This document shows positions 2,479 to 28,973 of a DNA stretch of 28,973 nt, one piece after another. The position numbers and the translations under genes are program-made. Below the pieces are notes generated by a model, which was given only the letters and a program-made list of their open reading frames with translations, ran no database searches and was not told the DNA's origin. Every line of letters starts with the position of its first letter. Positions within the stretch are counted from its first letter, which is position 1. Location of the stretch: IMG/VR virus record IMGVR_UViG_3300025120_000364, positions 1 to 28,973 of that record; one strand, given 5' to 3'. The stretch is from a virus.

Positions 2479-3714
2479 TTACATATCCTCCGAAGTAATG
2501 TGGACAGTCTTACCCACGTCTGAAGTCGCACCTTCGTTATCCAAGATGCACCAGAGTGTAGGCAGAGACCAACTACCCCAACCACCGTATATGTAACCAT
2601 CTGTCAGAACGATACACGCTTGCGCGTTGATGTTCTTATCTTGCAGATACTGAGGAACACAGCGTACATCTGTACCACCGCCACCTTCTGGCTTGGTTGA
2701 CTCAACTATGCCTCCTGCTTCTTGCAAGTCGTAGTACTCGTCACGACATACCTCTGTATCCCAGTAGACAATCCTGATACCTGAAGGCTTTACAGTGTCC
2801 ACCACCTCTTTGACTTCGGTCAAGAAGGCAGATAGTTGACGCATACCGATAGATCCAGATGTGTCGATAGCCACAACCAATTCACCGACTTGCTCCGTCA
2901 CACCGCTAGGCATGTAGATACCTGACGATAAGTATCTGCGATTTGGCTTACGGTACGTGCTGTAGTCTTTACCTGCACATGTGTCCGTAATAAATTCACG
3001 CAACACCTGACGCCAATCGATCTGTGGTTTTAGCAAGTCTTCAAGGTCACGATCACCACCGCTTCCAACTTTCCCTGCGACAAGCAAACCCTGACGTACA
3101 GCTTCTTCGATCTCACGACCCAGTTCACGCTTGTCTGCGTCTGACATTTCTTTTGCGCCATCCCAGTCGTGATCGTCAAACGGTTGCTGTCCATTAGGTA
3201 GTGAACCACTACCCTGACCATCGCCCTGACCTGAACCTCCGTTACCGGGGTTTTGAGGTTTGTTCTTACGCAGAGACTTGTATACCTGTGCGCTGTCCAT
3301 GCCACGATACTGCTCGTCATAACAACCGTTCTTCAACACGCCAGTCATGGTAGCAAAACCATCTTGGTTCTCTGCGGCAATCTTGAGATTAATAACAAAG
3401 TCATTAGCACAGTTAGCAAGATGCGGATCTTCATCATACAAGTGTCGCCACGTTGTAAGATGCCTGAACAGTTTGTGATACACCTCATGCAACACAAGGA
3501 ACCTAAGTTCTGGATCTGTAAGTTGCTTCACAAACTCACGTCCATAGAACTCGTCACGTCCATTGGTACATGCCGTGGGGACTTTGGGGTCGTCCGTGAT
3601 GGTACGCTCCCCAATCATTAGCACACCGACTAGTGCGATATACCTATCGTTGCTCATTACGGATACAACGGCTTTTGATAGCCGTTGCTCCTCAGTTAGA
3701 TTTTGTATAAACAT
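2479..3714 (-). CDS. Fused HExxH metallopeptidase-like / VWA-domain protein (DUF2201-type)
   Basis: A 411-residue, two-domain protein. N-terminal half: LVLHEVYHKLFRH with HEVYH at 76-80, the zinc signature of a gluzincin-like domain, followed by NCANDFVINL at 101-110 as in the family I recall as the DUF2201 N-terminal putative metallopeptidase. A Gly/Gln/Ser-rich linker (about 153-175) follows. C-terminal half: a VWA-like domain with the MIDAS set DTSGS at 284-288, Thr in GGGGTD near 348, and Asp in LTDGY near 372. Such proteins usually pair with a MoxR-type ATPase, and one lies just upstream (3915-5006). The gene starts at a TAATG junction with the 63-residue gene, with AAGGAAT as ribosome binding site. 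It probably acts as substrate adaptor or effector of the ATPase; its target is unknown. Confidence 0.85.
   Translation of the reverse strand: MFIQNLTEEQRLSKAVVSVMSNDRYIALVGVLMIGERTITDDPKVPTACTNGRDEFYGREFVKQLTDPELRFLVLHEVYHKLFRHLTTWRHLYDEDPHLANCANDFVINLKIAAENQDGFATMTGVLKNGCYDEQYRGMDSAQVYKSLRKNKPQNPGNGGSGQGDGQGSGSLPNGQQPFDDHDWDGAKEMSDADKRELGREIEEAVRQGLLVAGKVGSGGDRDLEDLLKPQIDWRQVLREFITDTCAGKDYSTYRKPNRRYLSSGIYMPSGVTEQVGELVVAIDTSGSIGMRQLSAFLTEVKEVVDTVKPSGIRIVYWDTEVCRDEYYDLQEAGGIVESTKPEGGGGTDVRCVPQYLQDKNINAQACIVLTDGYIYGGWGSWSLPTLWCILDNEGATSDVGKTVHITSEDM
3198..3212. repeat. Palindromic element copy 3, inside the VWA gene linker
   Basis: GTAGTG AAC CACTAC. It encodes GSGSLP at residues 168-173, within the Gly/Ser-rich linker between the metallopeptidase and VWA domains, where an insertion would be tolerated. 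The centre differs from copies 1 and 2. Confidence 0.78.
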
Positions 3715-3914: not shown

Positions 3915-5006
3915 TCACACATCTGCTGTATACAAATGCTTGTTTTTCAATGCCCAGTCACGGAACACTTGCGAACCCATCACCATTGCTTGCTTGCTGT
4001 ACTTTGGTGAACGGACACCATTGGCAAACATAGCTTGCGCTTCGGTATCAAGACGTTGCATATAATCCATCCAAGGCTTGACCCAATCTTTCTCCAACGT
4101 GGACAAAGTTCTGTACACAACCATACAGACAGCCGCCACGGACGTTGGAACAATAGCGTTCTTCGGATCGTTCTTGATACTCTCCAAGCTAGGCAACTGA
4201 TCGGACATCTTGACGTGTGTCATAATCAACGCTGCTGCTTGATCGCCAATCGTACCAATCAATGCCGCTTGCAACGTAATGTCGTCAAGGTGTTCCCGCT
4301 TCTTCAGTACGTCCGAACACGCGTGTAGAGATCTTGGTGTAGAGAACGAAACACGTTGCGCCTTCGGATGGAAGATGTAGGGGTTCTCAGTAGGATCTTT
4401 TACGTCTTCGTATGACTGGCACAACTGTGGGTTGTCCTTGATGCAACCAAGCATTGTGTGATCCCAACCGTCATTGATACCAAACTCGATAACTTCCAAG
4501 TGTGTACTTTTACGGATCTGAACAACACATATACGATTGCAAGCGTGTGGCGGTAACATGTCACCAACACCTTCACCACCTTTGTTTGTCGTTGCAAACA
4601 CGATACTGTCAGGGTGTAGTGAAGCACTACCAATTTTACGCTCCAACATGAGACGTAACAAACCGTTCTTGACTGCAGGATTTGCTTTACCAAACTCGTC
4701 AATCATAAGAATGATAGGCTTGTCGTGATGCAAACCCAGTTCTTCGTTTGGGATCATACGGACACAACCGTCAGTCTCGATAGACTGAAGGCTAGGTATC
4801 ATAAGATCACCAAGGTCTTTGGTAGTCGCGTCAAAATATACCTGTATGTGATTAGGATGCCGCTCCCCCAAGGTGTGGATCATAGAGGATTTACCTTGGC
4901 CTATGTCACCTTGAGCAAGAACGGTACGTTCGGTGCCCACTGTTGAGATTAGATTAACACACCTGTCGAGATTAAGGTGATACTGCGCGTGTACTTGATT
5001 TGTCAT
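3915..5006 (-). CDS. MoxR/CobS-type AAA+ ATPase
   Basis: A 363-residue AAA+ ATPase. Walker A is GDIGQGKSS at 33-41, Walker B is ILMIDE at 99-104, and sensor 1 is FATTNK at 137-142. A sensor-2-like STPRSL lies near 223-228, followed by the helical lid. The order and the ATTNK motif fit the MoxR/CobS branch. These ATPases act as rings that remodel proteins, often with a VWA partner for metal insertion, complex assembly or maturation. The VWA/metallopeptidase gene follows in the same operon and a DUF3150-like gene precedes it. AAGGAGAAG lies upstream of the ATG at 5006. Residues 126-130 (GSASL), in the loop before sensor 1, are encoded by a palindromic element. The substrate is unknown. Confidence 0.88.
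   Translation of the reverse strand: MTNQVHAQYHLNLDRCVNLISTVGTERTVLAQGDIGQGKSSMIHTLGERHPNHIQVYFDATTKDLGDLMIPSLQSIETDGCVRMIPNEELGLHHDKPIILMIDEFGKANPAVKNGLLRLMLERKIGSASLHPDSIVFATTNKGGEGVGDMLPPHACNRICVVQIRKSTHLEVIEFGINDGWDHTMLGCIKDNPQLCQSYEDVKDPTENPYIFHPKAQRVSFSTPRSLHACSDVLKKREHLDDITLQAALIGTIGDQAAALIMTHVKMSDQLPSLESIKNDPKNAIVPTSVAAVCMVVYRTLSTLEKDWVKPWMDYMQRLDTEAQAMFANGVRSPKYSKQAMVMGSQVFRDWALKNKHLYTADV
4616..4630. repeat. Palindromic element copy 4, inside the ATPase gene
   Basis: GTAGTG AAG CACTAC. It encodes GSASLH at residues 126-131 of the AAA+ protein, in the turn before the sensor-1 strand. Six-base arms are intact although they lie in a catalytic-domain coding region. Confidence 0.78.
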
Positions 5007-13735: not shown

Positions 13736-14104
13736 ATGTATACAGCAGAAATTAAAACTGAAGAAAAAGTAGCTACACAGCTACCAGAGCCAAAAGGCTA
13801 CAAACTACTCATAGGGATTCCAGAAGTAAGCGAGAAGACAGAGGGCGGAATATTTATGCCTGATGGTATAAGAAGCGCAGAAGAAACCGCTTCAATCGTT
13901 GGTTTTGTCATGAAGACAGGGCCAGATGCCTATTCTGACAAAGAAAGATTTCCTAATGGAGCCTACTGTAAAGAAGGCGATTTTGTAATTTTTAGATCCT
14001 ATTCAGGAACAAGGTTTAAAATACACGGCAAAGAGTTTCGTTTAATTAATGACGATACTGTTGAGGCTGTGGTAGATGATCCAAGGGGGTATACAAGAGT
14101 ATGA
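13736..14104 (+). CDS. GroES-like co-chaperonin
   Basis: 122 residues of Cpn10 fold. PKGYKLLIGIPEVSEKTEGG is the first strand plus mobile loop; GGIFMPD at 38-43 matches the GroES loop tip GGIVLTG, whose hydrophobic tripeptide binds GroEL. Later segments follow the family: ASIVGFVMKTGPDAY near 52-66, KEGDFVIFRSYSG near 79-91, and EFRLINDDTVEAVV near 100-113. It is slightly longer than bacterial GroES because of an insert (about 66-76). No GroEL is encoded here, so it should work with the host chaperonin, as T4 gp31 does. Its place directly before the scaffold and capsid genes fits a role in folding the capsid protein. Confidence 0.9.
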   Translation: MYTAEIKTEEKVATQLPEPKGYKLLIGIPEVSEKTEGGIFMPDGIRSAEETASIVGFVMKTGPDAYSDKERFPNGAYCKEGDFVIFRSYSGTRFKIHGKEFRLINDDTVEAVVDDPRGYTRV

Positions 14105-19294: not shown

Positions 19295-19545
19295 TGGCGC
19301 TAAAAAAATCTCAGAAGAGCTTAAAGTCTTGGACAAAGCAAAAATGGCGTACCAAAAGTGGGAAGCCTAGCGGTAAAACTGGTGAACGGTATTTACCTAG
19401 TGCGGCTATTAAGTCTCTTAGCCCTTCTGAGTACGCAGCCACAACACGAGCTAAACGAAAAGGCAAGGCTTCAGGCAAACAGCATGTGGCTCAACCTAAA
19501 AAAATTGCAAAGAAAACCAAACGATTTAGGAGCGTAGTGACATAA
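19294..19545 (+). CDS. Basic phage protein (SLKSWTKQKW family)
   Basis: 83 residues, strongly basic. SLKSWTKQKWRTKSGKPSGK, ERYLPSAAIKSLSPSEYAAT and TRAKRKGKASGKQHVAQPKK follow a pattern I recall from many cyanophage and marine-virus small proteins without a settled function. The start and stop both form TAATG junctions. Together with 18044, 18335 and 19148 it makes a run of basic proteins suited to DNA packing or to a nucleic-acid role in the virion. Confidence 0.75.
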   Translation: MALKKSQKSLKSWTKQKWRTKSGKPSGKTGERYLPSAAIKSLSPSEYAATTRAKRKGKASGKQHVAQPKKIAKKTKRFRSVVT

Positions 19546-20228
19546 TGGCTGTAGTAACCCCCGAATTATCTGAAATATTTGAAGAAGCTTATGAAAGAGC
19601 AGGTCTTCAAATGCGAAACGGTTATGACTTGCGAACAGCAAGACGTAGCCTCAACCTATTAACATTGGAGTGGCAAAATCGTGGTCTTAATCTCTTCACT
19701 ATTGAATCGGGTACGGTCTCTGTTACAGCGGGTACGGAGACTTATACCCTTCCTTCGGACACCATCGACATCCTTGAACACCAAATCCGAACCGGAACAG
19801 GCACAAATCAAATCGACACGGCCCTCGAAAGGATCAGTGTCGCAACCTACGCTCAACAAACCAACAAAAAAACGGAAGGTAGGCCGACCCAAATCTTCGT
19901 CCAAAGGCTCTCAACGGAAACAAAAGTAACGTTATGGCCCGTTCCAGATAGCACAATTACATACACAATCTTCTATTACAGGTTAAAAGGTATAGATGGG
20001 TTAGCATCTGGGGTTGGCTCTACCACTAATTTTGTACCTCCAAGGTTTGTCCCTTGTTTGGTTTCTGGTTTAGCATATTACATAGCTATGAAACGCCCTG
20101 AGGTAGCAAATCGTGTGGTTGCATTGAAGCAAGAATACGAGTTTCAATTTGAACTAGCGGCTGGAGAAGACGAAGAAACAGCGTCAATCAAATTTGTGCC
20201 CTATGATACGTTTATGTTAGGTGCTTAA
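19545..20228 (+). CDS. Head-tail adaptor or tail accessory protein (P22 gp4-like)
   Basis: 227 residues. SEIFEEAYERAGLQMRNGYD followed by LRTARRSLNLLTLEWQNRGL (about 8-48) and a TYTLPSDTIDILEHQIRTG strand resemble the tail accessory family of P22 gp4, which joins the portal to the tail. The C-terminal part has VPCLVSGLAYYIAMKRPEVA and a helix (VVALKQEYEFQFELAAGED). It adjoins the fibers and a second adaptor at 21245, in the usual order for podoviruses. A second reading frame inside it (19681-19929) is open by chance. Confidence 0.75.
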   Translation: MAVVTPELSEIFEEAYERAGLQMRNGYDLRTARRSLNLLTLEWQNRGLNLFTIESGTVSVTAGTETYTLPSDTIDILEHQIRTGTGTNQIDTALERISVATYAQQTNKKTEGRPTQIFVQRLSTETKVTLWPVPDSTITYTIFYYRLKGIDGLASGVGSTTNFVPPRFVPCLVSGLAYYIAMKRPEVANRVVALKQEYEFQFELAAGEDEETASIKFVPYDTFMLGA

Positions 20229-21004
20229 TGTCATATACAAGGGGTAGATACGCTTTTGGTTTTTGTGATAAAACCGGGTTTCGTTACCCGCTGTCTGACC
20301 TTGTGCCTGAGTTCAGAAATGGTGTTAAGACTGGTTTTCTTGTAGGCAGGGATGTTGTAGATCCTGACCAGCCACAAAATTTCTTAGGACGTTTAAAGAT
20401 ATTTGATCCTCAAAGTCTACGGAACCCTCGTCCTGATACTTCAGAAGTTGAAAGCAGGCGGCTCTTTGGCTTTGATCCTGTGGGAAATGATGCTCAATTT
20501 ATGGTAGCAGAAGTAGGCACCGTTTCGATTAGTATAACAGACGCTCCTATTCTAGACGTTGGTAGCTTTACTTTAACGGGTCAAGCCGCTACTTTAACAG
20601 TTTCTGACACAACGTTAGTTTGTGATGCGGGCAGTTTCACTTTAACGGGTCAAAACGCAACGCTTGGTTCTTTTGAGACCTTAACCATAACTGTGCAAAG
20701 CACCGGATACGGTAATAAATACTACATAGATGGTTCGCAAACACCTACTCTCACCCTTAATGAAGGTAATACTTATCGTCTTGACCAAAGCGATGGGACT
20801 AATGGCGGTCATCCTCTTCGATTTAGCACGACCTCTGATGGCACACACGGAGGAGGCTCTGAATATACAACTGGCGTAACAACTAATGGAGTTCCGGGTA
20901 ATGCTGGTGCTTACACACAGATAGTTGTAGCCGTGGGAGCGCCAACGTTGTATTATTATTGCACACAACATAGTGGTATGGGAGGTCAAGCAAACACGCC
21001 TTAA
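20228..21004 (+). CDS. Virion-region protein with cupredoxin-like C-terminal domain
   Basis: 258 residues, three parts. Residues 1-72 form a domain (RYAFGFCDKTGFRYPLSDLV, then PQSLRNPRPDT) found N-terminal in marine phage proteins; relatives I recall carry CxxC zinc ligands that are mostly lost here (one Cys at 13). Residues 108-146 hold two copies of GSFTLTGQxATL. Residues 150-258 form a cupredoxin-like beta domain with GHPLRF (H195) and YYYCTQHSGMGG (C245, H248, M251), the plastocyanin-type His-Cys-His-Met type 1 copper set. If real it would bind copper in the virion. Signal peptide absent. The start is a TAATG junction with the adaptor gene. Confidence 0.75.
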   Translation: MSYTRGRYAFGFCDKTGFRYPLSDLVPEFRNGVKTGFLVGRDVVDPDQPQNFLGRLKIFDPQSLRNPRPDTSEVESRRLFGFDPVGNDAQFMVAEVGTVSISITDAPILDVGSFTLTGQAATLTVSDTTLVCDAGSFTLTGQNATLGSFETLTITVQSTGYGNKYYIDGSQTPTLTLNEGNTYRLDQSDGTNGGHPLRFSTTSDGTHGGGSEYTTGVTTNGVPGNAGAYTQIVVAVGAPTLYYYCTQHSGMGGQANTP

Positions 21005-21244: not shown

Positions 21245-21877
21245 ATGAACTATTCAGAACTGACACAAGCCATTAAAGATTACACGGAAAATACAGAAAC
21301 AACTTTCGTGAATAATATAGATGACTTTGTTCGTCAGGCTGAAGAGCGCATATACAGGGATGTCATAATTCCTGAGTTAAAGAAAAATTCTGTTGGTAAC
21401 ATGACCGCAGGTAATCAGTATCTTGCACGACCTTCAGACTTTTTATCTACGTTTTCCCTCGCCATATCTAATAGTAGCGAATATACATATCTTCTTGAAA
21501 AAGAAGTTAATTTTATAAGGGAAGCCTACCCCAATTCCTCTACACAAGGCGCTCCAAAGTACTATGCAATATTTGATGGAGACTCCGCATCTTCAGACGG
21601 TAACTTTATAATAGGCCCAACACCAGACGCTTCTTACGCTATAGAGCTACATTATTACTATGACCCACCATCAATAGTTACAGCGAGTACTTCTTGGCTG
21701 GGAGATAATGCGGAAGCTACATTGCTTTATGGGAGCTTAATCGAAGCATATACGTTCATGAAAGGCGAACCTGATATACTACAGTTGTATCAACAAAGGT
21801 ATGAAAGCGCTTTATTAAACATGGCAAGCCTAGGCGTTATGCTTAAAAGTGATATTTACAGAACGAGTGCAGCATAA
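21245..21877 (+). CDS. Second adaptor-like tail protein
   Basis: 210 residues. NYSELTQAIKDYTENTETTF, DDFVRQAEERIYRDV (about 25-39) and ELHYYYDPPS, and a helical C-terminus (DILQLYQQRYESALLNMASL) follow a phage adaptor family I recall from podoviruses such as SU10, which links head to tail nozzle. It lies 3 nt after the basic gene and overlaps the next gene start (TAATG). Confidence rests on pattern memory and gene order. Confidence 0.7.
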   Translation: MNYSELTQAIKDYTENTETTFVNNIDDFVRQAEERIYRDVIIPELKKNSVGNMTAGNQYLARPSDFLSTFSLAISNSSEYTYLLEKEVNFIREAYPNSSTQGAPKYYAIFDGDSASSDGNFIIGPTPDASYAIELHYYYDPPSIVTASTSWLGDNAEATLLYGSLIEAYTFMKGEPDILQLYQQRYESALLNMASLGVMLKSDIYRTSAA

Positions 21878-27817: not shown

Positions 27818-28973
27818 ATGACACGCGCCAGAGACTTAGCAAACATTGCAGATGGTGATATCACAGGCACATTAACGCTTGATGGTTTGACTGTTGCGGG
27901 AAACGTGTCTGTCGATAGCGGCACAGTAAAGCTAGACGGTAATTACCCGACTGGCTCAAACAACCTAGCATTAGGCGACACAGCGCTAGACAGCTTGGAT
28001 GGCACAAGTCCCGGTGGTTATAGTACTGCTATTGGTAGTACAGCATTAACAGCACAAACTACTGGTAATGGAAACGTAGCTGTTGGATTTGCTTCTGGTT
28101 TAGCTTTAACATCTGGTGATGCTAACGTAGCCGTTGGTACGCAAGCCCTTAATGCGAATACTACTGCTGACAACAACACCGCAGTTGGTTATCAGGCTGC
28201 TTATGCTAACACTACTGGAACGCAAGTATCAGCCTTTGGTTATTTGGCTTTAAATGAAGCTACAACACCAAACAACAATGCAGCATTTGGCACACAAGCC
28301 ATGCGTAGATTAACAACAGGGTCTGAAAATACGGCCATTGGAACAGAGGCTTTACGGCAAAGTACAACGGGTTCCAACAACACAGCAGTCGGTAGTGCCT
28401 CATTGATTTTAAATACTACTGGCTCAAACAATGTTGCACATGGTTATCATGCTTTGTTCAACAACACCACCGCAAGCAACAATACTGCTGTTGGGTATCA
28501 GGCAGGGTATAGTAATACGACTGGTACTGCCAATACTGCAATGGGACATGCAACATTAGACGCTAATACAACTGCATCTTATAATACGGCTTTTGGGGCT
28601 ACAGCTTTAACAGACAATACTACTGGCGCATCAAATGTAGGTATTGGATATGGAGCATTAGCAAACAACACTACAGCAGGTAATAACACTGCAGTAGGAA
28701 CAAACGCATTAGAAGCAAATACAACAGGTGCATCAAACGTAGCAGTTGGAACTCAAGCATTAGACAACAACACCACCGCAGACAATAATACAGCGGTTGG
28801 GTATCAAGCAGGGTTTAGTAATACTACTGGTCAGATTGAAGCATTAGGGTATCAAGCAGCGTATAGTAACACTACAGGAAACTATAACCAAGCATTTGGC
28901 TATCAAGCACTTAACTCCAACACAACTGGTTCTTATAACATTGCTATTGGTAGAGGTGCTGTCCAGTTAAATA
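27818..28973 (+). CDS. Repeat-rich tail fiber or adhesin, 3' end beyond the window
   Basis: At least 385 residues, cut by the window edge. TAAGGAGG lies before the ATG. The N-terminus MTRARDLANIADGDITGT is a fiber attachment segment. From about residue 48 come roughly 20 units of 17 residues, such as NNTAVGYQAGYSNTTGT and SNVAVGTQALDNNTTAD. The pattern N-T-A-V-G-x-x-A-L-x-x-N-T-T resembles the left-handed head repeats of YadA-like trimeric adhesins. One unit near 28836 is one residue short. It should form a rigid trimeric stalk. Confidence 0.85.
   Translation, partial: MTRARDLANIADGDITGTLTLDGLTVAGNVSVDSGTVKLDGNYPTGSNNLALGDTALDSLDGTSPGGYSTAIGSTALTAQTTGNGNVAVGFASGLALTSGDANVAVGTQALNANTTADNNTAVGYQAAYANTTGTQVSAFGYLALNEATTPNNNAAFGTQAMRRLTTGSENTAIGTEALRQSTTGSNNTAVGSASLILNTTGSNNVAHGYHALFNNTTASNNTAVGYQAGYSNTTGTANTAMGHATLDANTTASYNTAFGATALTDNTTGASNVGIGYGALANNTTAGNNTAVGTNALEANTTGASNVAVGTQALDNNTTADNNTAVGYQAGFSNTTGQIEALGYQAAYSNTTGNYNQAFGYQALNSNTTGSYNIAIGRGAVQLN
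27959..28973 (+). repeat. 51-bp coding repeats
   Basis: About 20 tandem units, each coding for 17 residues and diverged in DNA but regular in period. They run to the edge of the window. The units have no spacers, so this is not a CRISPR array. Confidence 0.85.

Follow-up and report, generated by a model that had tools for sequence, protein, structure and literature searches.

The gene at positions 20228 to 21004 of the DNA analysed here (the window: the whole 28,973-base IMG/VR virus record IMGVR_UViG_3300025120_000364, with 37 predicted proteins) encodes a 258-aa protein in whose C-terminal part a His, a Cys, a second His and a Met follow one another in the order of the ligands of type 1 copper proteins. 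This raises the question whether a phage protein may carry a copper site of this kind, and what such a site would do there. An earlier note, made from the sequence alone, had proposed a plastocyanin-like copper site in a phage tail-region protein; a recheck of the sequence confirmed exactly the open reading frame on the plus strand, the numbering of the ligands and the pair of GSFTLTGQ repeats. The protein has His at 195, 207 and 248, Cys at 13, 132 and 245, and Met at 1, 92 and 251, and the cupredoxin domain described below is present once in the window. The features of the locus are:

19545..20228, plus strand: upstream SU10-type adaptor gene (PF24175, E 9e-14)
20228..21004, plus strand: 258-aa protein with a degenerate zinc-ribbon N-domain, a flexible repeat linker and a C-terminal cupredoxin domain
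20228..20443, plus strand: N-terminal domain, residues 1-72, phrog_28581; zinc ribbon with three of four Cys lost (CDKTG ... LVGRD)
20444..20671, plus strand: linker, residues 73-148 (from pLDDT)
20561..20584, plus strand: GSFTLTGQ repeat 1, residues 112-119
20630..20653, plus strand: GSFTLTGQ repeat 2, residues 135-142
20672..21001, plus strand: cupredoxin domain, residues 149-258 (from AlphaFold2, Foldseek and ligand conservation)
20810..20812, plus strand: H195, predicted first His ligand, within GHPLRF, invariant in 24 of 24 diverse rows
20960..20962, plus strand: C245, predicted Cys ligand, closing strand 241-245; the domain has no other Cys
20969..20971, plus strand: H248, predicted second His ligand
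20978..20980, plus strand: M251, predicted axial Met ligand
21245..21877, plus strand: downstream second SU10-type adaptor gene (PF24175, E 2e-25)

Conservation of the four putative ligands

Among the 37 predicted proteins of the window, the pattern H-x(25-75)-C-x(2-4)-H-x(2-4)-M was matched by the 20228-21004 protein only. A shuffling control gave 0.18 matches per window and 0.0005 (0.05%) for this protein. As sequence evidence the H-C-H-M motif by itself is modest, and conservation is stronger.

A plain tblastn search, in which the ligand motif played no part in retrieval, matched 49 phage records, and all of the 18 different phages checked from this list, which include Synechococcus, Prochlorococcus, Pelagibacter and Methylophilales phages, keep H...C-x2-H-x2-M. 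An alignment of 24 rows, combining phage rows with cellular and other distant relatives at a mean identity of 40% and a minimum of 16%, contained six invariant columns only: G180, H195, Y243, C245, H248 and M251. Every row (24/24) had exactly one Cys per domain; an unpaired, conserved Cys of this kind in an exposed domain is compatible with a metal site and rules out an immunoglobulin disulfide. When 39 rows sharing less than about 80% identity were compared, no column except the four ligands was invariant. Conservation across the relatives thus rules out that the H-C-H-M motif arose by chance.

Concordantly, a scan of genome contigs with a search pattern containing no ligand residues returned matches that kept the ligands almost throughout, with one clear loss (L196), where the ligands were lost together. 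Some patterns used for scanning IMG/VR did include the Cys-His-Met motif, and the results of those scans are the matches listed; the conservation counts therefore rest on the tblastn records and the genome-contig scan, which were retrieved without the motif. H207, considered as a fifth ligand, is kept in 90% of near relatives, but since it is Trp or absent in distant ones it does not belong to the core ligands. At L115:1513-2238 the first His is changed to Asp together with the axial Met to Leu, the Cys and the second His being kept, and judged from these substitutions this site is probably dead.

Fold and sequence affinities of residues 149-258

AlphaFold2, run on residues 149-258 with 39 diverse rows as input alignment, predicted a compact and almost entirely beta domain (pLDDT 94.0, pTM 0.86). 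When the model was compared with the PDB by Foldseek, the top match was rusticyanin (E 2.7e-4, probability 1.00, TM 0.59), followed by nitrite reductase, multicopper oxidases (among them laccases), AcoP and amicyanin, and all but about three of the best 50 matches were copper proteins. With a pLDDT of 94 and neighbours that are almost all cupredoxins, residues 149-258 are predicted to form the cupredoxin beta-sandwich. TM-scores to solved cupredoxins were moderate (about 0.5-0.63), which counts against the explanation preferred below, and identity to the best structural neighbours, rusticyanin and the cupredoxin domains of nitrite reductase and multicopper oxidases, was 15-18%. These neighbours are secreted redox proteins, unlike the phage domain.

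In the predicted model H195 immediately precedes a strand, strand 241-245 ends with C245, and the loop ahead of the last strand (253-256) carries H248 and M251, an arrangement as in cupredoxins; the order is His, Cys, His, axial Met, with Cys, His and Met on one loop before the final strand. The predicted fold and the strand positions suggest that H195, C245, H248 and M251 meet in space.

Comparison with profiles of amicyanin, plastocyanin and pseudoazurins gave E 1.1e-5 with all four ligands aligned. The score was reached by none of 200 full column shuffles and still by 9 of 200 shuffles in which the CxxHxxM stretch was fixed and the other columns were permuted, which implies that the sequence link rests mainly on the motif and that similarity outside CxxHxxM is weak. 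The fold evidence is a line separate from this sequence link. Searches of Pfam, NCBIfam and PDB sequences with the window protein gave no match above threshold. Among profile matches a nitrite reductase came closest (E 0.011), and none of the copper families of Pfam and NCBIfam exceeded its cut-off. PF00127 (plastocyanin/azurin) yielded no match for the window protein and only weak matches in 3 of 39 relatives (best E 0.013, 16.3 bits versus a cut-off of 21.2 bits), and nearly all relatives have His-Pro at the first ligand in place of the His-Asn motif of this family. Pfam, NCBIfam and PHROGs do not call the domain a cupredoxin; family libraries label it only tail fibre or unknown, and some records say immunoglobulin.

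The ligand loop is spaced C-x2-H-x2-M in amicyanin and C-x2-H-x4-M in plastocyanin, and Asn usually follows the first His. Amicyanin (Paracoccus, 1AAC) and PF00127 share with the phage domain the cupredoxin fold, the order His, Cys, His, Met and four ligands that align, and amicyanin shares in addition the exact loop length. In contrast to them, the phage domain follows its first His with Pro rather than Asn and has a ligand loop without Pro, a long Gly/Thr-rich insert ahead of the Cys strand and a score below the Pfam cut-off, and the phage protein has no export signal. Plastocyanin proper was rejected on account of the C-x2-H-x2-M loop and the missing His-Asn. Of the plastocyanin-like site proposed in the earlier note, the order of the four residues is therefore retained, whereas the spacing is that of amicyanin, without His-Asn. 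Altogether, the model and the alignments support well that residues 149-258 are genuinely of cupredoxin fold, with a predicted metal site that is type-1-like and intact and has an amicyanin-style loop. The predicted fold, its neighbours among solved structures and the conservation of the ligands likewise give good support to the proposal of a type-1-copper-like domain fused to a phage N-domain in a virion-region protein.

Genomic surroundings and distribution of the domain

Genes in the window are arranged in the order terminase (8626), portal (11049), GroES (13736), major capsid (16197) and SU10-type adaptor (19545), followed by the 20228-21004 protein, a second SU10-type adaptor (21245) and then fibre-like proteins. 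Where the sequence of a relative reaches far enough, an adaptor gene usually lies immediately upstream (63 of 75 loci); the second adaptor follows downstream in 73 of 76. In the SU10 neck, according to the passages of the report drawn on here, long tail fibres are held by the adaptor ring (PMC9509320); both genes flanking 20228-21004 match the SU10 adaptor family PF24175, and the same passages, which concern the adaptor and the long tail fibre, describe no cupredoxin. The position between SU10-type adaptors implies that the protein is most likely a neck or fibre-attachment component, and gene position together with annotations of relatives points to its presence in the virion. The earlier note placed the protein in the tail region; for a gene between two SU10-type adaptor genes the neck fits better.

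Residues 1-72 match phrog_28581, a PHROG of unknown function. In relatives (L088, L137, L165, L169 and others) the N-domain reads CDRCG...CxxC, that is, a zinc ribbon, of whose four Cys one remains in the window protein. The zinc-ribbon Cys were lost in the window lineage (20228-20443), and CxxC...CxxC is kept in other lineages. Prediction of the full-length protein was confident only in the two end domains, between which the linker is predicted to be disordered, with pLDDT <50 across residues 70-113, 115-122 and 127-146.

A survey with the N-domain alone as query provided a sample of 80 N-domain loci among the matches listed. The cupredoxin resides in the same protein as the N-domain in 10 of these 80 loci, forms an N-terminal extension of the neighbouring adaptor in 2, and, in a divergent version, ends a downstream 217-aa fibre-like gene in 17, while 51 of the 80 loci listed have no cupredoxin in reach. 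All 17 loci with the downstream 217-aa cupredoxin gene (L242, L233, L221 and 14 more), and no other locus listed, have an N-domain protein with an FDST..LDST..TFDE tail, which from its sequence is possibly a docking tail. Fusion of the cupredoxin to the N-terminus of an SU10-type adaptor homologue was found at L080:4967-5998 and L013:4985-5989, and L013 carries the domain on both the adaptor and the zinc-ribbon protein. Beyond these loci, tail fibres and baseplate connectors of cyanophages and pelagiphages contain the domain, which is common in viral sequence collections. Cellular occurrences comprise SAR86 lipoproteins (L182, L183), very large Photobacterium proteins and others. This distribution suggests that the cupredoxin domain behaves as an optional displayed module, moving between neighbouring virion genes.

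The SAR86 lipoproteins (L182:2521-3069 and L183:4833-5396, lipobox LAAC) are small and consist of the cupredoxin domain, and L183 sits on a chromosomal contig. Matches to the predicted fold in BFVD include short 'beta-sandwich proteins' (A0A481Z6J5, A0A481YVH3 and A0A481Z7Q7) from Pithovirus LCPAC302/304 and Marseillevirus LCMAC201; these are matches of fold only.

Possible metal and role of the domain

The best explanation overall, which we consider reasonably probable, is a cupredoxin with a type-1-like site that is held at the neck, loaded with copper after lysis and used as a display add-on for host contact. The degenerate zinc ribbon would anchor the protein at the neck, at or close to the adaptor ring whose genes flank 20228-21004, and the flexible linker would allow the cupredoxin to project from the particle. 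Inside the host, where the cytoplasm is reducing, the site would probably be empty or hold Cu(I). Copper from seawater or lysate would probably fill it once the cell bursts, and the domain would become stiffer as the metal clamps its C-H-M loop. Most likely the domain would work as an add-on on display, comparable to the Ig-like domains of other phages; contact with polymers of the host surface or with copper ligands, stabilised by the metal, may help the particle to find or hold cells. The Ig-like accessory domains of phage structural proteins are similarly optional beta-sandwiches displayed on varied virion proteins, but the phage cupredoxin belongs to a different fold family and has a predicted metal site. 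Against this explanation count the weak similarity outside CxxHxxM, the lack of a copper family above its cut-off, the missing His-Asn motif and the scarcity of free copper in the cytoplasm where phage proteins fold. As far as the model goes, virions may carry copper via the cupredoxin domain. A wider claim, that the virions of many ocean phages (cyanophages, pelagiphages and phages of the SU10-adaptor type) bear functional type 1 copper centres on exchangeable display domains, loaded post-lysis and used in host contact, is advanced here tentatively, as a possibility about which we have some doubt. Phages would then be copper-binding particles of the sea that have been overlooked as a class.

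Zinc fills the type 1 site of recombinant azurin when this protein is expressed in a copper-poor cytoplasm. Since Zn occupies type 1 sites of cupredoxins made under such conditions, the phage site might have a structural role only or contain a metal other than copper, for instance zinc; the cupredoxin scaffold would then be reused as a stable spacer, its ligands being conserved solely because the metal keeps the loop together. The many unrelated carriers and varied positions of the domain are as expected of a generic stable module. However, a structural zinc site should tolerate other ligand sets, whereas the full His2-Cys-Met set is invariant, the weak axial Met included, and the soft Met ligand points to copper; we therefore regard this alternative as unlikely.

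A redox function, in which the domain would carry electrons, scavenge superoxide or sense redox state at the host surface, is less likely than the role of displayed add-on and seems improbable to us, even though fold and ligands are those of an electron-transfer protein. Redox sensing was among the roles suggested in the earlier note, next to stabilising the tail and binding metal at the host surface. No redox partner protein was recognised adjoining the gene, and a fixed path for electrons is not what one would read from a domain that moves among fibres, neck and baseplate proteins. Its transfer between fibre and neck proteins and its occurrence in bacterial surface proteins favour surface contact over electron transfer. 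The cyanophage auxiliary gene for plastocyanin (petE) likewise represents a cupredoxin in marine phages, but its product is a free, host-derived photosynthetic electron carrier, whereas the domain described here is built into neck and fibre proteins.

Slightly more improbable still is that host copper-uptake receptors recognise virion-bound copper, by analogy with the Ferrojan/Trojan Horse hypothesis, for which iron HxH sites have been proposed in T4-type tail fibres (PMC11705849). The existence of this iron proposal and the presence of the domain on tail fibres of many marine phages would speak for such a copper Trojan horse, but the domain is also found on neck proteins and the 258-aa protein, with His only at the three positions given above, has no HxH motif. 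The two systems have in common a metal site, predicted in our case, in a virion appendage, and differ in fold, ligands and probably metal.

That the domain is immunoglobulin-like and its CxxHxxM incidental is very improbable: antibody heavy chains are weak profile matches through the 'YYC' motif, and existing annotations give Ig V-set (PF07686) for a homologue in phage P-HM1 and Ig domain protein for one in MED4-213, but the single Cys (24/24), in place of the two of a V-set, leaves no Ig disulfide, H, C, H and M are invariant, and Foldseek places copper proteins far above Ig domains. The proteins with these records are P-HM1 PHM1_104 (L214) and MED4-213 M4QD42, where the cupredoxin domain is listed as Ig V-set and immunoglobulin domain, respectively; the labels probably arise via the YYC motif.

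Cupredoxins as such are long known, as is free plastocyanin in cyanophages. No report of a virion cupredoxin was found in the open-licence literature on cupredoxins or type 1 copper together with phages, tail fibres or virions, which is weak evidence of novelty. A metal site typical of proteins of respiration and photosynthesis appears, from its sequence, to be intact as a detachable module of marine phage particles. If it truly binds copper, phages would be a further part of the organic copper ligands in seawater, and copper could influence how phages attach. Moreover, the predicted site makes a simple colour test possible for virion proteins that, as an entire class, lack annotation.

Three further loci of the window were noted. 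A GroES co-chaperonin gene (13736-14104; PF00166, phrog_3188) lies inside the head module. The frame at 27818-28972, open at the window end, contains many NTAVGYQA-type repeats and matches phage virion structural and tail spike families. At 2479-3714 and 3915-5006 (minus strand) a VWA/metallopeptidase-like protein appears, as read by eye, to adjoin a MoxR-type AAA ATPase.
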